A DNA stretch of 64,000 bases from assembly GCF_000003815.2 (NCBI RefSeq), contig NC_049980.1, forward strand, positions 22,147,249 through 22,211,248, written 5' to 3'. The notes beneath the pieces are model-generated. The model was not told the origin of the DNA. It made no database searches and worked only from the letters and a program-made list of their open reading frames with translations. The position numbers and the translations under genes were made by a program. Positions 24,101 through 53,939 of the stretch are shown one piece after another. How positions within the stretch are numbered: the first letter of the stretch is position 1; every line of letters starts with the position of its first letter. The DNA is from Branchiostoma floridae. Taxonomy: Eukaryota; Chordata; Leptocardii; Amphioxiformes; Branchiostomatidae.

Positions 24101-27100
24101 CACCTGTCTTGCCTCTGCATTGCAAAGCAGTGTAGTTTATCAGTTGTATCTGTTGCAGATTCAACTGAGTGTGGAGAGACAGCCAGAATCGATGCACACT
24201 TGGACAAACCAGGAGAAAAAAGGCGAACACAACCATGTAGGTGTCTGCATATACCTAACAATTACAACAAGCCAGGAGTATAAGCTATCTCTTACAACTT
24301 TTATAAAGCAGGTTATACTTCTCCACAGTGACTAATGTTTGAAGAAAACTTGCTGTAGTTCCTTTAGATAGAATCGTAAATTTGATTTGTTCGATACTGG
24401 GCAATACCCAATTAGTTGGTGTCAGGTGTCCATGGTTTGATACTGTGCAGCTATTGTCCTGTTATTCTAGCTATAGGCTGATAAGATTCTCTCATCTCAT
24501 TTTTGTACATTTGTAACAAACTGTTAAGATATAATGAGTTTTTGCTGTGTGCAGGAAAATTGGCAGGAGTTACGGCGCTCGGTGTTGCAGCGGGAAAAAG
24601 AGCGGGAACTGCAGAGGAACAGGCAGGAGCAGGAGACGCTGCGGCGAGAGAAGACGTCACCACACAGTACATCAGAGGAATGGGCTGGACCCTCTGGCAA
24701 CACTGATGATACACAGGATATGTGGGATTCCCCTGGGCAGGCAGCAGCCGGCATGGCCAGCGGGTACAACCATTCCAGTCAGCCGCGAGGGGAAAGGTGT
24801 CATCCTGGAGGTGATTAAAGAACTTTCTATGGAGTACTTGATACTGGTAATCTTGAAACTTTTGATTCTGCTGCTGCTAGGGTCCCTGACACGGGTATGC
24901 AGCAGTCTTCACAACACACTTNNNNNNNNNNNNNNNNNNNNNNNNNNNNNNNNNNNNNNNNNNNNNNNNNNNNNNNNNNNNNNNNNNNNNNNNNNNNNNN
25001 NNNNNNNNNNNNNNNNNNNNNNNNNNNNNNNNNNNNNNNNNNNNNNNNNNNNNNNNNNNNNNNNNNNNNNNNNNNNNNNNNNNNNNNNNNNNNNNNNNNN
25101 NNNNNNNNNNNNNNNNNNNNNNNNNNNNNNNNNNNNNNNNNNNAAGTTTAGCATGTAGAGCTGACATCTCACCATGGGGTTTGACACCACAGATCCATCT
25201 AATCATGGCGTTGCAGCCACTGAAAAAAAAACCATATGCTTCATCTCAATAAGCTGGGCGTTGGATTGCACTGCACATGTGTAGCAACATGCATTGTGGT
25301 TAATATGTGAAAGATAGACCTCTAACTTAGATAGTAAGTAGTTCTTGTTTAGACTGTGCTCAGTGCATGTCCAATTTTGTTTTTTGTCTCAGGGGCCTTT
25401 TGACATACATTTTCCTGTGTATGAGCGGTTTAATTTGTGAACTGTTGAGGATAACTTTCCCTTTCCCTCCAGGCAGTGGACCTGTGTATGAGGAAGTGTG
25501 GGAGGAGTCAGAGTGGGAGGAACAACACCAGGCCCCTCCAACATCCCAAGCCTGGAGGAACACCAAACCTGCCCCTCCACCTGCTGTCAACCGCTGGCAG
25601 GAAAGACTGGTAAGCAACTTCACTTGGTACTTGTGACGTCCAGTCGTTCCTAATGTGTACTAATTTTGGTGACTACAGTGCTTCCTTTTTAGATAGTAAT
25701 CCGAGGGCTTGAAATGTCAACTGCATATTTAGATTAGTCTGGGTAAATTGTAACCTGGCGCATCCCCGTCTTGTAATTAGCCAGCGAAAGGGTATGTCAC
25801 CCCGTAAGGGGCGGTATCACCCTGTCGTGTGTAAACATGTGCGAACATGTGTGATCACGTCGACCGATGATGATGATGATGATGTAACCCAAGATATTTC
25901 TGATGTCAAGCACTCCTGATGAATATGTCAAGACATGCTGACCATTTTGTAGTAGAACATAAACTATGCAAAGAGAGAGCTGAACATGAAACTTGCAGTT
26001 TGTTTCCCAACTCATGCACCATAAACATATTTGCTCTTAGGCCTAGTAAAAAAATGCATTTCCTGTTTACCGACCTATCCTAGAAAAATGTCAACCCTAT
26101 CTTTTTAGGGGGGGGGGGGCGTAGCAGAGTCAAATAGTTTCCAGTTCAAATGTTTATTTAGCCTGCTTCCTATTCAAGTGAAAAAATGGCTTGTCCAGTC
26201 AAATGAAGGGTAGATGTCTCCACAGATTTGTAACCATTATACACAAAATGAATGGTACAGGTAAACTGTGTCTGGTACAGATGGTTTGGAATGTTACCTG
26301 CACAGGTATGTATGGTATGTAGAAAAAAGTGAAACAAATCCTGGTGTTTATTCATGGATTGTTGATTTGTTATCTCTTACATGTATTGTTGATTCTTACA
26401 CAGGAGTTGATGTCCCTCTGCCCGAGAACTGAGCAGGATGAAGAGGAAATGTTAAGGAAAGCGATCGAGCTCAGTCAGCAACAAGCCCTGGAGGATGAGC
26501 ATCGCAGACAGTAAGTTGTCATGAAACTTCTTCAAAATAATCTCTAACTAGAGTTCCACGAACACATACCTTTGCCAAATAAACCAGGTTTGTTATGCAG
26601 AATGATGTCTGTAGACAAATGCGTTACTCATTTCATTTCTTTATAATCATATGCTTGGAGTTGGTTTATAAAATTTTGGCATTGACTATGCAAATTAGAT
26701 CCCAAGTTACAATCAATTGATATCAAATTGTAGCAAGCATTACTTAAGCTATTAGCATACCAAAAATCATGATGATCCTTTGATCCATTCTTGACTTATT
26801 CTCTTTCAAAGTCTTTAAATACACCTCTTACTCTCTTCCCTCTTTCTCAGTTACATATGTGACAACTTTCATTGATGAAAGTACTATAATGGAATACAGT
26901 GGATTTATGAACATTTCCTAATCAATTATGCAAATTAGCTGTTAATTTGCATAATAAGTATCACATTATATAAGTCTTCACTTAGGCTATCTACATGCCA
27001 AAAATCATGACGATCCGTCAACACGTTCATATTTTCTCATTAATTATGCAAATGAGATCATCATTTGCATGGTAAATATGTATTGACATTTCTCTCTTTC

Positions 27101-30100
27101 TCAGCTACATATGTGACAAGTTTTAAAGTCCTATCATGGAATGTAGTGAATTTATAAATATCCTCATTAATTATGTAAATTAGCTGTTGATTAGCATAAT
27201 TGGTATCTCATTATGTAGGTCTTCACTTACGCTACCTACATACCAAAAAGCATGATGATCCGCCAAAATGTTCATATTTTCTCATTAATTATGCAAATGA
27301 GGCCATCATTTGCATAATTGATATCTATCAACATTTCTCTCATTCCCAGCTACATATGTGACAAGTTTGAAAGTCCTATCATGGAATGTAGTGGTTTTAT
27401 AAATTTTCCTAATTAATTATGCAAATTAGCTGTTGATTTGCATAGTTAGTATACCATTATGTAAGTCATCACTCATTCTATGTACATACCAAAAATCATG
27501 ACGATTCGTCAACACGTTGTAGAGTTATTCTCGTCCAAAGTTTGAAAGGAAACCGGCGCCTGCAGTTCCAAAAAAGCTGCTAGGGGGCCCAAACTCCCAG
27601 CACTTACTCTCTGCCTCAAGGGCTATCTACCACTCGAAAATCATGATCACAGCATCCAGAACAGGAGATATCAAAAATTGAGGTTCTGCTGCAGTACCTT
27701 AGCAAGCCGCTAGGGGGCCCATTATCGAACTTGACCTTCGTTTTCCCGACCCCTACCCACCTACCAAATATAATCGGGATACATCAAAGGCTTCTCGAGT
27801 TATGCTGTTAACACACACACACACAGACACACACACAGACTCACAAGCCTAAAACATAACCTTAGCCATTCTGGCAAAGGTAATAACAGCCTCGTTCAAC
27901 ATGTGTGTCCTAAGCTGTTTTTAGTTTAAAGTGAAGGTTTATTGCTCGGTGAATATTTTGTCAGGTTCCTTAAGCATGGGTTAGATGGGTGTCTTCATAA
28001 AAATCAAGCAGTAGGTGAAATCTTATGTTAGATTAAGTTGAATAAGATTTCTAATACATACAGAGTCTAACAAACAGATTTTTACTCTTCCTCTTCTGAA
28101 AACCCTTGTGGTCCCATTGCAGTGGCTAGGGACATCTTCATAATGTAGTTTTTAAGGCACAGTATCATTTCGTAGGGTACTGCTCAGTGCATACAAGACT
28201 CGACTTCTATTCTAAAGGCTGTCTAATGCTAGTTTATTAATACAAACATCATCACACATCATGCTTCTCGATTGATGACATAACATTACTGTTGTAGGAT
28301 AAGAAATGCTTCCTTTCGTGTTTTTTACTTTACCAACTTTTTGTTCCGTCTAACTTGCCAGGGTGAAGTTTGAGAAGATGATAGAAGAACAGAAGAGGAA
28401 ACAGAATACGTTGGCAGCTGACCAGTTTCCCTCCATCAGTGCACAGTCCAGGAGAGATCAACCTTACAACATGGCTAGCCAACAGGACTTTCCACCAATA
28501 AGAAATGGAACATCTACGGATGTTAGACAAGCAGGGTCCAGCTTTGCAACTTGTGCCAGAAAGTCAAAGGCCCAATGCCTAGAAAGTCTGCCAAGGTCCC
28601 ATGTTGGGATGGGTATGCCAGTCAGTGAGGATTGGGAATCAGATCTAACAGAGGTAGTTCCCCACCCACCCCCGACAAATGAGATTACAGGGCAACATAA
28701 ACCCATGCAGAGACCCAGTAGTTCTCTGTCATCAGCCAATCCCATTCCTCACAACACATCAACGAAGCCAAACCTTGTAAATCCAGACGATAACGTTACT
28801 GAGAACACCACGTGGCTTCTCTCTGGGAAGTCTGTATCAGACCAAACGTGGGAAGCCACTGGAGATGAAGCTGTTTCTAGAGAAAGTGTGAAAACGGACA
28901 ACTTTGGTTGTTTTGGGTCAGCTGGCAAAAGGGTGTCAATCTCAAGCAGCGACGATAGTGGAGGTACCATCTTTCACAATACACCCCACCATGGTGGGAA
29001 CACAGACAGAAAGGACAATGGACATGTGTTCAGCAGTTCCAATGTAGATGTGAACATTGTAAGTCAAAGTGAACAGGCTACTTTGACAAGTAAAACAAGT
29101 GGCCTTGATTGCCCCAGGGAGAATGGTCCAGCCAGGGAAATATTCCCCAATGTACAAAAGAGTCCACCAAAGAGGCACCTGTCTGGTTGTGGAGACTCAG
29201 AAGACAGCAACAAGTCTCTCAAGGCAGAGGCAAGATGTGCATTCGCAGGAAATCCCTCTGCTGTCTTCCCTTTTAGTGCAGCACATCCAGAAGGTTTCTC
29301 CCAACTCAGGAATATGGCAGCTCAACCACAAGTCAGCGCACCCCCAGGTTTGCCTGCTCCTCCAACCATTCCAGGAGTGCACATCAAGGTCCCTTCTGGG
29401 TTTAATGAGCCTGAGATTGGTCCTTTGAGGAACCCGTCTCCTCCCCAGTCGGACAGTGTAGGTGTGAACAACTCCTTCCCTCCTCGGATGACTCCGCTTC
29501 CAGTGGCCGTGCCACCGCCTGGCGTCCTGCCAGGTATTCCACCCACCATGTTCCCTCCCTACCCTGGCTACCCAGCATTCCCAGCTTACCCCTTCCCCGG
29601 CATGTACCCCTACCTCCCCATGCCAGCTATGCAGTCCCCTGTGTACATGTACTCCCTCCAACAAGTGCAGCGCGGGATAGGCAAGTTGTCCAGCAATGGT
29701 GGAGAAGGAAAGAAGGATGACGAAGATAACCATCAAAAGGCGGCAAGTTACTCAGGAACTCCCGTTCACCCTACACAGGCAGGTCCTGTCCAGGCAGCTA
29801 ACACAGCAGCATCCTCAGGGAATCCCACTGCAGCCAACTCATCTACAACCACACCGCACATGGTGCCCTCTGCTCCTCAATCAAACCATAGTAGCATAAA
29901 TGGGCTTGAAGACTTGCAGGGAAGACATCAACTTCCCCATCAATATCCCAAGTGTAGGAGTGATGATGATGAAACAGCAAAAAGTGAAGAAACTTTTGAC
30001 AGGAACACACCCTACAACATGCAGTCTGTTGATAGTGAGGAAGATACTGTTGCACACAGAGTGACCAAGAGGACAGCTGGGCATTCCAGGTGGATGGGAA

Positions 30101-30744
30101 GTAGACCCTCTTCTGTTCGCCATGCTAAAGAGGAGGCCGCTGATGGAAGATGCGAGACCAGTGCTGCTGCATTGGAAGGAGACTCCAAGAGAGAACCGAC
30201 AAAGACTGGTGGTCTTTACAACAGAATGAGGACAACTTTCAAGGTAGAAATTGCGTTTCAGTTCTCAGTTGTGACAAAATTCCAAGGCTTTTCAGAAAAA
30301 CAGCTGGTAACCCTTAATTGTTCTTTTCATTTCAAGTACGGTATTATATATTTGTTGAAAATAGCTCAAAAAGTGCAATGAATATAAGATTGAAAGAGTT
30401 ACATAGAGTAAGAACGCAATACACATAAAAATACAAAACAGGTGATGGTAAACAAGTGTAAACCAGTTGGTGTTCAATGATAACAATAACCAACCTGCAC
30501 CATCAACTATAATAATATAAAAGTGAACAATTTCTAAAATATCACAAATTTGTATTATGAAAGCAAAGTTGATCCTCATAGTAAAAAGCTTAGGGTACTG
30601 TCATTGTGTTGCTATGTGTATACAAAGTCTGAAATTTGCAGTATTACAGACCATGCTTGTATTTTGCAGAGAGCACCTGTGGCACCAAGATTTCAACGGT
30701 TGCAAGACCAGCAGCAGCAAAGGGACAGGCAACAAAAACCATGA
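12144..30744 (+). CDS. Large J-domain protein with ubiquitin-interacting motif and proline-rich tail
   Basis: Exons: 12144-12231, 12995-13047, 13675 into gap, 15626-15693, 16196-16229, 17133-17188, 17481-17528, 19583-19642, 19971-20018, 20335-20391, 20536-20633, 21301-21523, 22231-22280, 23051-23204, 23504-23677, 24159-24236, 24555-24810, 25473-25609, 26404-26510, 28362-30243, 30670-30744. About 1250 residues are visible and more lie in gaps. The N-terminus is a J domain: CRLLGVEVDAALEDITKAY with HPDK at the exon 2 end, so it should stimulate an Hsp70. Then follow an acidic stretch (EEAWEYFDEEDDPESF), a hydrophobic LFFLVLRDLYR, lysine-rich segments, a charged coiled coil (EIKKLAEEIEKRNAEELERL), a tryptophan/acidic segment, a UIM (EEEMLRKAIELSQQQALEDE) and a Pro/Tyr-rich region (29340-29665), ending APRFQRLQDQQQQ. 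I do not recognise the whole protein. Exon 3 has a frame break next to a gap. Confidence 0.82.
12242..12341. other. Assembly gap (100 N)
   Basis: A run of 100 N in intron 1 of the J-domain gene; the round size suggests a gap of unknown length. Confidence 0.99.
13715..14209. other. Assembly gap (495 N)
   Basis: It cuts exon 3 of the J-domain gene, so the second half of the J domain (helices III-IV) is missing from view. Confidence 0.99.
14991..15489. other. Assembly gap (499 N)
   Basis: Lies between J-domain gene exons at 13675 and 15626; one or more exons may be hidden here. Confidence 0.99.
16399..16729. mobile_element. hAT-like MITE with CAGGGTTGGACAAG ends
   Basis: CAGGGTTGGACAAG at the left is inverted as CTTGTCCAACCCTG at the right, and both ends are followed inward by repeated ACTTGCCC motifs in both orientations. 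It is flanked by GTGCA direct repeats (16394-16398 and 16730-16734). CAGGG termini are usual for hAT, but the expected 8-bp duplication is not intact. It lies in an intron of the J-domain gene. Confidence 0.6.
18529..18628. other. Assembly gap (100 N)
   Basis: A run of 100 N within the Tigger-like element. Confidence 0.99.
19071..19208 (+). pseudogene. Tigger transposase N-terminal fragment (CENP-B-like HTH)
   Basis: A 45-residue frame starting MSKASTPEGHALTLVIRR and continuing SENGNSPRQLAADFGAG then GRTQIS. The pattern of an Ile-Arg-Arg helix, an Asn/Gly turn, a Gln-Leu-Ala helix and a Gly-x-Gly-Arg turn before Gln-Ile-Ser resembles the first DNA-binding helix-turn-helix of CENP-B and Tigger transposases. 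There is an apparent insertion in the turn and a stop soon after. The DDE catalytic domain is absent, so this is a relic. Confidence 0.55.
20821..21017. mobile_element. MITE with TACTGTAAATGCA ends and TTCGCGG subterminal repeats
   Basis: TACTGTAAATGCAGAAATG at the left is inverted as CATTTA(A)...CATGTACAGTA at the right. Inside are TTCGCGGT and ACCGCGAA motifs in alternating orientation. The outer TA may be the target duplication. A second copy lies at about 39143-39345, and fragments are seen at 16325-16390 and 55855-55900. It lies in an intron of the J-domain gene. Confidence 0.65.
22541..22897. repeat. Two tRNA-derived SINE heads in opposite orientation
   Basis: A plus-strand tRNA-like segment (about 22545-22605) has an A-box-like part and B box GAGTTCAATTC. 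A minus-strand one has B box GAGTTCGATAC (22842-22832) and A box TGGCGCAATGGC (22885-22874). The stretch between is unrelated to the gene exons. Neither folds as an intact tRNA, so both are read as SINE copies in an intron. Confidence 0.5.
24922..25143. other. Assembly gap (222 N)
   Basis: Lies in the intron between J-domain gene exons ending at 24810 and starting at 25473. Confidence 0.99.
26640..27880. repeat. Tandem repeat array with ATGCAAAT units and an (AC)n tail
   Basis: About four units of roughly 240 bp, each with TTTCTC...CAGCTACATATGTGACAAG, ATTAATTATGCAAAT and AAAAATCATGA(C/T)GATCC(G)TC. The array is followed by a unique part with CTAGGGGGCCC twice and ends in an ACACACAC tract (27812-27840). 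Related copies are at 10230/11470, 43560-43990, 44640-45230, 47340-48020 and 48130-48270. The class is unknown; no terminal inverted repeats were seen. It lies in the J-domain gene intron before 28362. Confidence 0.65.
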
Positions 30745-49687: not shown

Positions 49688-49693
49688 TATAAG
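49688..49693 (+). promoter_or_regulatory. TATA box of the prokineticin-like gene
   Basis: GGGGTATAAGAAATAG lies 65-70 bases upstream of the ATG at 49758, a good core-promoter position with a short leader. Confidence 0.55.
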
Positions 49694-49757: not shown

Positions 49758-52676
49758 ATGTGGAGCCCTGCCCTGCTGATGGTCCTCACTTTGGCAGCGC
49801 TACACCACTCCACCGGCCTTGTCGTCACAGGGGTAGGTGGGCTCTGCCCTTGGTGCTGATTACTGGACTCTTTCCTTGGTGCTGATCCGGCAAATCTCTT
49901 CTTTTGCAACTTATTCATATGTGCATTTTCCAGCACTACATGTAGCATATGTTAATAACTGATCGTAGTCTTAGCAAAATATAAGCCTAACATCCAATAC
50001 AATGTAAAGTTCGGCTTGTGTGCAGCGTTTGAAACGTATTTTGTGTGGTTTTGGGGTTATTGGAAAAGAGCAGTGCTTGAAAGATGTGCAACACTTCGTT
50101 TTTTTTTAAAGACTCAAAAAATTAAGTCAGAGCCATACATATGCTTTTATAATGAGGAAAGGCGCAAGTACACTAGTGCATTGGGCTATTTGGATAAGGA
50201 AATTTAGAAATCTGATGCTTTATTGAGACAAATGGTGTTTATATCCTTTGCAGACCTGTCAGAATGACCAGGAGTGCATCGCGGCAAGGGACGAGGCGGG
50301 TTCTTGCTGTGCGCTGTGGAGCCCGGGCTCGGACCTCCACGTCTGTAAGCCCGCAGGCAGGACCGGCGAACCCTGCCACGCGGCCTCGAACGTCTTACCG
50401 TGAGTTGCAGAACGTTCTCTAACATATCTTACCTCAAAACAATTACTGGATTAAAGGTGTACTCAATTTAAGGATAGGGCAGTGATTGAAGGCAGTTTTC
50501 TGTACTCTCCAAGCAGAGGTTAGGCTCCGGTTGTTTGTTTTCAACGTTTCTTCAGTCGTTTTTATCGGGCTTTCTGTTTTGTATTTTATCTTGCTTTGTC
50601 AAAACCTAACGTTTGGCTGTCGCACTTCAAGAGAAATAACAAAATAGAAAGCCCGATAGAAATGACTAAAAAACGTTAAAAAAACATCTGGAGCCTAACC
50701 TTTGCTTGGACAGTAGTTTTCTGGTCGTTTTTAGGTAATACCTTGCATCCAGCTACCCTGTTGCATTGTACGACAGTATATACGGAGAGAATATGCGACA
50801 TCATAGCTTTTTACGAACGCGTCGAAAAGCCGGGATCTAGCTCATACCAGTCTGCTTGTACTTATTGTTACCGAAATATGTAACAGTTAGAAAATGAAAA
50901 TCGAAGGTCGTCTATGGGAAAATAGGGTTGCTCCACTCACAAGGGGGCTCCTTTTAACACTCGAAGCCAAGCCGAGGGTGTTTAAGGAACATAGCAACAC
51001 AGCTACCCTCAGAGGAGCAGAGAGCCCATGTTCTAGTAGCTGATTTCCAATGATACATACTGTCTAACGCCGTCAGCTTTGGTCCATATCAGTAATTTAT
51101 CAGACTTTGGTTAGAGTTTATATATCCAGGCCATTTAACAATGACATATAGAGAGCAAGTGTTAAAAAATGAAAGGCAAAAAAAAAAAACGGTTAACCAG
51201 CTGTCCCGTCCACGGTAGCGGTGACATACAGACTGTTAGCTCAGAGAGCGTTTGTGTGCCAGTGTCAAGTAGACATGTGGGGTATTCATGAGAGTTGACG
51301 CGAAACAAGAAAGGGATTCATATTCTTAACCTAGTACGATATCATAGCCCTGTCTACAAATCATAAATGCTTCACGGAGGCTTGTGTCCTGTGGACTCTG
51401 GTTATGTTTCCCGATAGGCAACGTTTACAACCGTTATCGTTTCCCGATAGGGCAAACCATCTTGTTTTTGCTGGTGTGTTCTTCTTCTAATTCTGTCGTC
51501 TGTAATTAACCATTCAGAGCTTAGAACTGCAATAACATCAGCACTTTCAAAAACCAAGTAGATAAAGGGTGGACCGGAATCAGGCAGATGCAGAGTGGCC
51601 TTTTTACTGGCACACAATACGAGCTCAATTGTATAGTATAATCATGACCTGGTCAAAAAACATGCAGATGTCGGGTGGCTCGTTTTTGACTTGCACACAA
51701 TACTATAGGGCGAGCCTAATGGTATAGTATAGTTATGTTAATGACCTGGTCAAAAAACAAGCAGATGTCGGGTGGCTCGCTTTTGACTTGCACACAATAC
51801 TATGGGGCGAGCCTAACGGTATAGTATAGTTATGTTAATGTCCTGGTTAAGAAACAAGCAGATGTCGGGTGGCTCGTTTTTACTTGCACACAATACTATA
51901 GTATAGGGCGAGCCTAACGGTATAGCATAGTTATGTTAATGACCTGGTCAAAAACCAAGCAGATGTCGGGTGGCTCGTTTTTTACTTGCACACAATACTA
52001 TAGTATAGGGCGAGCCTAATGGTATAGTATAGTTATGTTAATGACTTGGTCAAAAAACAAGCAGATGTCGAGTGGCTCGTTTTTTACTTGCACACAATAC
52101 TATAGGGCGAGCCTAATGGTATAGTATAGTTATGTTAATGACCTGGTAAAAAAACAAGCAGATGTCGGGTGGCTCGTTTTTTACTTTCACACAATACTAT
52201 AAGGCGTGCCTAATGATATAGCATAGTTATGTTAATGACCGGGTCAAAAAAACAAGCAGATGTAGGGTGGCCCCTCTTTTTTACTCGCTCTAAATACTAC
52301 AGGGCGACTCTGTAGAAAATTATCCCACAACTTTTTCATCACGAAATTGTACATGTAGATTCCAGATCAAAAGGGTCTGTCCTTTGCCAGCGGTGGACCA
52401 AAAACTCTATGTTATGTGAGTATGACGACATTCAAGCAGTAAAGTAGGGCATCCGTATTTATATGATGGCCATACCCGTTGCTATATTGATGCAGTTCAA
52501 TGCACCCGTACCTTAGTGGTTTCTATAGACGTCACACTTTATTTACGTCACACGTGCCTTTCAGATACCCATTCAACGGGCAGAGACGCTTCTGGAGGTG
52601 CCAGTGCGCGGAGGGACTACTTTGCGTCACCGAACCGGGCAGTTTGATCGGTCGCTGTTCTTCAGTGGACAAGTGA
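49758..52676 (+). CDS. Prokineticin-like (AVIT family) secreted peptide
   Basis: Exons 49758-49832, 50254-50399 and 52565-52676 have GT-AG borders, phases 0 and 2, and give 110 codons plus stop. Exon 1 encodes a signal peptide (MWSPALLMVLTLAALHHSTG) and the first mature residues LVVTG, directly followed by TCQNDQEC in exon 2. The mature part has exactly ten Cys with the prokineticin spacing pattern: C, C, CC, C, C, CxC, C, C (TCQNDQEC, SCCALWS, HVCKPAGRTGEPCH, RCQCAEGLLC, GRC). GRTGEPCH and the short C-terminal tail SVDK also fit. Vertebrate prokineticins act on G-protein-coupled receptors and need an N-terminal AVITGA; here it is LVVTGT. A colipase or dickkopf-type fold is the alternative, but the VVTG start and exon layout favour prokineticin. 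A TATA box is at 49688; a possible AATAAA is at 53262. Confidence 0.85.
50505..50713. mobile_element. Foldback MITE, CTCTCCAAGCAGAGGTTAGG family
   Basis: CTCTCCAAGCAGAGGTTAGG and CTCCGG at the left are inverted at the right (GGAGCCTAACCTTTGCTTGG), with matching AACGTTT and TTTTTATCGGGCTTTCT inside. It lies in intron 2 of the prokineticin-like gene. Confidence 0.75.
51560..52316 (+). repeat. Minisatellite, about 7 units of 97-102 bp
   Basis: Units begin ATGACCTGGTCAAAAAAC at 51644, 51741, 51838, 51939, 52041, 52138 and 52235. Each carries GCAGATGTCGGGTGGCTCG, TTGCACACAATACTATA and GGCGAGCCTAA(T/C)GG. A decayed unit precedes at about 51560. The longer spacings come from an extra TATAG and small indels. 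It lies in intron 2 of the prokineticin-like gene. Confidence 0.9.
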
Positions 52677-53939
52677 ACAGGCTCGACATCTACAGATACA
52701 TTGTACCATCTATATGGGGAGAAAAAGTGGCAGTGATACGAATACGTATTTATGGCTTTAAGTGCGGACATGTTATCCCAAATTACATTGATTGTACTCA
52801 AGGGACTCATGTTTTCCTCTGTACTAAGCCATGTTGATTTGTTTATATGGATGACCTCCTCTGGGAACCCCAGAACTGATGCGAGCGTGCAAACAACAAA
52901 AGGTTGGGCCTAAAAAATGTTGCCTTTCTTTTGAAATCAAATTGTCAGGAAGGTTGGACAAATGCTTAAAATATAATGTATGGTATACCGAACAATAGAT
53001 TTTTTCAGTTTTGATATTTCACATCTTCATTGACTTTTGAATTTTCTTGATGAGAATGACGATGCCATCCATATCAAATCAAACCAACATTGCCTTCATG
53101 TATTGACCAATACTACTTAGTGTGGATACAGTTTCTGGTCCGATGGTCACCCTCTTACAGCTGGTCTTGTAGGGGATTACAAATCATCTGTTTGTGTTTG
53201 GAAGCTAATTCGTTTTAAAAATCAACTACTCATAGAATGAAATGGGACCATGGCTTTCAAGAATAAAAATCTGAACTACCAATATACTGTGTCGTTTTCT
53301 TCCTTAATGACTGTTTTTTGTTGTTCATTTCGGTGTCCGTATACATGATTAATGACAATACCTGCACCACATGTAGAGTACCAAGACGAATGTTAGAACG
53401 ATAAACGGTATAAGTTAGAGGTGTTGACTACGACCTTTGATATCTACTAGAGAGCCATCTGTAAACAGAAGATGGAAGGCTACAAAGTCTACCCTTTAAG
53501 GATGACGTATTACTCGTAATCTTGTAATCATAGCAAAAGTGGGCCACGTCGGTTCTTGAGTAGGTATGTAGTAGTGCCTACGTGCCAGATTGAACACTGA
53601 CTTTGACTTTATTGACGATGAGGATTTGGGAATAGAACCCCTAAGTGGACGGGTACGGCGTAGGAAAATTAACGCCGTCGTGACCAAATATCGTCGGTGG
53701 GGATCCTTTTCTTACACAGATTTCGGCCGAAGTGATGTGGATGTTGAATGGAATCCTGTCTTAGTAGATAAATGGAGACCAGCCCTAAATGGTTGGATAT
53801 TGAAACAAAACTTTTATCTAATACAACAACACCATAAAATTAAGGTACATATGAGTTTACAAAGGTGGTATCTTGTATATGATTGGACCAATTGTCAATA
53901 AAACGAAATAACGAACTATGATGCAGGTAGCTAAGTCAG

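Follow-up and report, generated by a model that had tools for sequence, protein, structure and literature searches.

The closest described relatives of the gene presented here are the vertebrate ligands PROK1, PROK2 and Bv8 and their snake homologue MIT1; prokineticins are small secreted signalling proteins, described chiefly in vertebrates. In human PK1, the signal peptide and AVITG are encoded by exon 1 and the ten Cys by exons 2 and 3 (PMC8877203), while the PROK2 mutations G32R, in the AVITGA motif, and C34Y have been assigned to exon 1 and exon 2 respectively (PMC3624607). A splice insert of PK2 lies after residue 47 (PMC2694302). In the proposed mode of action of these vertebrate proteins, the core contacts the N-terminus of the receptor and its second extracellular loop, while the tip enters the pocket between the transmembrane helices (PMC8877203, PMC9776816). 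Changes in the AVITGA hexapeptide abolish agonism or create antagonists (PMC8877203, PMC2694302, PMC3624607). The vertebrate PKR receptor genes carry an intron within DRY (PMC8877203).

More distant members include the astakines and other protostome proteins, which share the prokineticin-type Cys domain (PMC11521371, PMC8398477). A 2021 paper describes non-vertebrate prokineticin precursors without the AVITGA start, and its passages on protostome prokineticin-domain members report that these lack AVITGA and that related receptors are not known from protostomes (PMC8398477). A 2024 paper treats AVIT as a chordate signature, present in chordate ligands (PMC11521371). The dickkopf C-terminal domain and colipase belong to the same colipase-type fold family (PMC8877203, PMC2694302). 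On the receptor side, a 2008 study counted twenty PKR1/2-like genes in Branchiostoma floridae, its passages on these receptors containing no discussion of the ligands described here (PMC2246102).

Here we describe a gene from a stretch of 64,000 nucleotides (64 kb) of Branchiostoma floridae DNA, referred to as the window, together with its relatives and the candidate receptors in the same genome.

Gene anatomy and family assignment of the window locus

The gene (49,758-52,676, plus strand) consists of three exons (Table 1) which splice in frame across GT..AG introns, with donors GTAGGT and GTGAGT and acceptors TTTGCAG and TTTCAG. The product has 110 residues and ten Cys (positions 27, 33, 43, 44, 56, 66, 86, 88, 94 and 105) in the order typical of the prokineticin family, as a preliminary description of this DNA had proposed. 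It begins with a hydrophobic, signal-like stretch reaching HHSTG, followed by LVVTG, where exon 1 ends in phase 0, and then by T and Cys1. Exon 1 thus carries a signal-like peptide and an AVITG-type tip, and the likeness of this break, just after VVTG, to that of vertebrate genes, also noted in the preliminary description, agrees with the passages on human PK1 and PK2. A small-residue rule listed five cleavage sites, among which cleavage after residue 20 (before LVVTG) fits, as does cleavage after 13 or 14. A strict first-exon scan of the 64 kb window, in which a signal peptide had to be followed by two hydrophobic residues, TG and a GT donor, returned a single site on the plus strand, exon 1 of this gene, and none on the minus strand.

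Table 1. Features of the prokineticin-type locus (positions in the window)
Feature	Position	Strand	Remarks
TATA-like element	49688..49693	+	70 bases upstream of ATG; string match only
Exon 1: signal-like peptide and LVVTG (AVITG equivalent), phase-0 donor GTAGGT	49758..49832	+	
Intron 1, placed as in vertebrate PK genes	49833..50253	+	human placement from papers
Exon 2: Cys1 to Cys6, prokineticin domain	50254..50399	+	
Intron 2, between Cys6 and Cys7 (phase 2, within codon 74)	50400..52564	+	
97-base tandem repeat, 6.7 copies, within intron 2	51644..52307	n/a	
Exon 3: Cys7 to Cys10 and stop	52565..52676	+	
AATAAA, possible poly(A) signal	53262..53267	+	586 bases after stop; string match only

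Among Pfam profiles, Prokineticin (PF06607) alone exceeded its cut-off for the product of the window gene (54.4 bits, cut-off 21.6, E 1.6e-14), the dickkopf profile reaching 15.9 bits against a cut-off of 27. The best PDB sequences were MIT1 (47.6 bits, 1.5e-11) and Bv8 (40.5, 2.4e-9), followed by dickkopf-1 (17.2). This comparison upholds the prokineticin-type identity first put forward: the best match was to prokineticin, not solely to colipase or dickkopf. L020, an exon of dickkopf type from this genome, passed both cut-offs, with 28.6 bits for dickkopf and 23.6 for prokineticin. The window gene is not the top prokineticin scorer of the genome (L037 reached 60.5 and L025 58.2), and all eight paralog constructs or domains scanned passed the Prokineticin cut-off. 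At the level of sequence, these results establish the locus as a member of the prokineticin family with the anatomy given in Table 1.

In many ways the gene resembles PROK1, PROK2, Bv8 and MIT1: it shares their ten-Cys order, an AVIT-type start that begins five residues upstream of intron 1, the place of that intron and a second intron at about the same place between Cys6 and Cys7, in addition to the profile and PDB sequence matches. Counted back from the PF motif, intron 2 agrees to about a codon with the PK2 insert site, using what we take to be the residue numbering of human PK2. In contrast to these ligands, the window gene has the tip LVVTGT rather than AVITGA, which keeps V2, T4 and G5 and carries the changes A1L, I3V and A6T; three of the six positions differ, and not one hydrophobic residue as had been stated. 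The Trp of the Cys4-Cys5 loop lies at CC+3, two residues before the place of Trp24 (CC+5) in the vertebrate ligands; a Trp at CC+3 is found in 16 of the 30 sequences examined (window gene among them). The Cys2-Cys3 loop has 9 residues, compared with 4 in the vertebrate ligands.

The surroundings of the gene offered nothing to compare with the synteny of vertebrate PROK genes, since for 10 of the longer ORFs (from 403 of 55 residues or more in the window) no Pfam profile matched at E 0.01. A 675-residue open frame (28354-30378, plus strand) has neither a Pfam match at E 0.01 nor a PDB sequence match. Neither the Rfam nor the tRNA scan found anything in the window. A 245-base tandem repeat (2.7 copies) occupies 26836-27518, and stretches at about 13.6-14.3, 14.9-15.6 and 41.1-41.6 kb translate to X and are runs of N, either assembly gaps or withheld sequence. 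No relative was confirmed in a collection of prokaryote contigs, an uninformative result.

A family of paralogs with varied tips

The window gene is one of 29 prokineticin-domain loci in the genome assembly (513 Mb, 431 contigs). A search with the family profile gave 23 matches, among them L020, which was excluded from the locus count as dickkopf-type, and a search with the window domain gave 39 matching stretches. The latter comprise two from the window gene, 28 counted loci (26 at E 1e-4 or better and two at 0.0056 and 0.018) and nine which were left out because they represent second exons, initial parts or weak fragments (C199:342360, C13:21251613, C10:16824734, C10:16830886, C2:15356630, C13:21271589, C2:15278883, C1:5047606 and C4:13071198). 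The paralogs are 33-57% identical to the window gene, and 43% or more in 22 of the 28. As in the window gene, 21 of the 23 paralog loci with Cys1 in the matched exon have a phase-0 acceptor precisely one codon upstream of Cys1, the exceptions being L043 and L053.

Gene structure downstream of Cys1 is more varied. The complete ten-Cys pattern occurs in one open frame or exon in 16 of 27 paralog loci tested, and these therefore do not have intron 2. Some others are split by introns, and a second intron is found at differing places; that of C2:15278309 is two codons from the window gene's, in the same phase. The Cys2-Cys3 loop is 7-9 residues long in 22 of the 23 paralog loci which show it and 4 residues long in L034, the length also seen in Bv8 and human PK2. 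A single local radiation is suggested by these lengths, L034 being either an exception or a later change. Prokineticin-domain loci also form local clusters (G000:C13:21.23-21.27 Mb, C10:16.82-16.85 Mb and C2:12.3-15.4 Mb), which indicates tandem duplication. The tip MPITG, with Pro at position 2, is shared by two almost identical ligands on different contigs (L048 on G000:C3 and L050 on G000:C6), which form a recent duplicate pair. In a 22-domain tree that includes 20 sequences of this genome, the window gene is nearest to the vertebrate pair (distance 2.07, compared with 2.51 for L037 and 2.55 for L025). Along with L025, it branches close to that pair, with support values of 0.006 and 0.67, too weak for an ortholog of vertebrate PROK to be named.

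First exons, in which a signal peptide runs into a hydrophobic tip at a GT donor, were found upstream of 13 of the 28 paralog loci. Their tips are AVITG, MVVTG, LVITG, IIITG, FVVTG, IVITG, VVVTG, MVITG, LVLTG, AIITG, MPITG (twice) and IIMTG. Including the window gene, all 14 located first exons have an AVIT-type tip, a figure into which the TG ending is partly built because the strict scan and both patterns described below required it. The variation by position is A/L/M/I/F/V, V/I/P, I/V/L/M, T and G. Position 1, which was not built into the search, is M in four tips, L in three, I in three, A in two, F in one and V in one, so that A1 is absent from 12 of the 14. In several paralogs, cleavage could leave six residues rather than five. 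Exact AVITG occurs in one paralog, L025 (with L063; G000:C9, exon 1 match 9846133-9846150, domain 9849108-9849344), whose tip is nearer to the vertebrate start than that of the window gene. The preliminary description had suggested that the window gene may be an intermediate between astakines and AVIT-bearing ligands. We reject this, because AVIT-type tips recur within the family and one paralog has exactly AVITG.

Near the paralogs, the strict scan covered 157,711 sense bases, with overlaps between pieces counted twice, and recovered 10 distinct first exons; its antisense control gave one match, which proved to be the genuine exon of L042, a neighbouring locus. A genome-wide tip pattern gave 88 matches, against 56 for the reversed pattern. 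Six of these, picked by reading the list, fall within 5 kb upstream of a ligand locus on the same strand, where 0.012 would be expected; four were already known and two were new. A wider pattern (215 matches against 185 in the control) added one new site, from the first places listed. All three new sites proved on reading to be signal-peptide exons. No first exon was found for 15 of the 28 paralog loci: nine were scanned over only about 1.5 kb upstream, and none appeared in some 4 to 8.5 kb scanned for L028, L030, L031, L049, L053 and C2:15278309. Looser upstream scans gave no convincing tip ending other than TG.

PKR-like receptors in the same genome

The genome also contains PKR-like G-protein-coupled receptor sequences, as the preliminary description had suggested might be looked for. 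With a stretch of human PROKR2 as the query, scoring covered 130 of 611 initial candidates, and 33 of the 130 listed matches were tabulated, retaining those with 40% or more identity, a query start up to 37 and a query end at 100-140. This yielded at least 22 TM1-3 exons, 40-64% identical to this PROKR2 query, which end at DRY (query position 101) or a little beyond it, near the place where an intron interrupts the vertebrate PKR genes, and reading of the 130 listed matches revealed no further qualifying one. The figure compares with the 20 PKR-like genes of the 2008 count (PMC2246102). A stop lies inside 15 of the 22 matched stretches and some of these matches may be pseudogenes; in L068, the one stretch of the 15 that was read, the stop lies in the splice donor just after ER of the DRY equivalent.

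When its two exons are joined, L068 is 41% identical to the PROKR2 query over 289 residues (237 bits). Among the best 60 of 716 solved structures, its closest match is the prolactin-releasing peptide receptor (137.7 bits), and no PKR occurs among those 60. Linkage between ligand and receptor loci does not reach significance: two of the 22 receptor loci lie no more than 500 kb from a ligand locus, against 1.05 expected (P 0.31), in a list of 31 ligand places which includes the window gene, the dickkopf-type place and one fragment. As a whole, the preliminary interpretation stands for the prokineticin type, the signal-like start, the ten Cys, the exon 1 break and the PKR-like exons in the genome, and falls for intermediate status and the single changed residue.

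Proposed action, alternatives and significance

We propose, with a probability of roughly 0.8, that the window gene encodes a secreted prokineticin-type ligand which would activate PKR-like receptors through its LVVTGT tip. The signal peptide would most likely be removed after Gly20, leaving LVVTGT before Cys1. The ten-Cys part would fold, as its homology to Bv8 and MIT1 implies, into a compact colipase-like core with five disulfides. By analogy with the vertebrate prokineticins, this core would dock on the outside of a PKR-like receptor while the tip would enter the transmembrane pocket, switching the receptor on. We infer that the gene is expressed. Counting against this proposal are the three tip changes, the Trp at CC+3, the alternative cleavage sites, the stops in 15 of 22 receptor matches and the non-significant linkage of ligand and receptor loci.

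Because the tip starts with Leu and not Ala, the protein might instead bind PKR-like receptors and block or bias them. In vertebrate ligands, A1-to-Met or an added Met produces antagonists, and loss of A1-V2 removes activity or gives an antagonist (PMC8877203, PMC2694302). The frequency of tips without A1 in this genome argues against such a role, since the receptors here are probably adapted to other starts, and we consider it improbable. An astakine-like growth factor acting without a PKR-type receptor would belong to the same Cys domain family, and the protostome members, in the passages of PMC8398477, lack AVITGA and have no known related receptor. The AVIT-type tip of the window gene, its vertebrate-type intron 1 and the PKR-like receptor exons in the same genome are, however, features which set it apart from the astakines and other protostome members as described (PMC11521371, PMC8398477), and make an astakine-like factor a good deal less probable than a blocking ligand.

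The window gene could also be a decaying or unexpressed copy, as several loci of the family look fragmentary and only the 16 of 27 noted above have the ten Cys in one frame, some others being split by introns. Its own frame is intact, however, with both introns and with TATA-like and AATAAA strings, and its distance to the vertebrate pair is the smallest among the 20 sequences of this genome; decay is, in our estimate, marginally the less likely of these last two. A dickkopf- or colipase-type protein would account for the weak dickkopf similarity in Pfam and among PDB sequences, but the scores for prokineticin are far higher and L020, as a contrast from the same genome, behaves differently. 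Neither the dickkopf C-terminal domain nor colipase is known to have an AVIT-type start. This identity was dropped on the scores and we give it almost no weight.

In sequence terms, the genome possesses a large ligand family with varied tips, alongside PKR-like receptor exons in similar number. With 29 ligand loci and at least 22 receptor exons, it is tempting to imagine a prokineticin system expanded on both sides, a network of many ligands and many receptors in which diversified tips and receptor pockets would follow a matching code. Such a code would be comparable to that of the chemokines. We put this forward tentatively, as a reading which we would not yet favour. In the literature searched, itself consulted through partial texts, we found no description of a lancelet prokineticin ligand family; one may be contained in the alignment figure of PMC11521371, where chordates are represented, in the supplements of PMC2246102 (predicted peptide ligands) or in subscription papers. 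The varied tips, together with the many receptors, may be the new part.

In the lancelet, exact and near AVIT starts, the exon 1 boundary and PKR-like receptors occur together in one genome. From this co-occurrence, the mechanism in which AVIT acts on a PKR would date to the chordate ancestor or before. The natural series of tip variants, together with the candidate receptors, makes the supposed strictness of the AVITG requirement directly testable.
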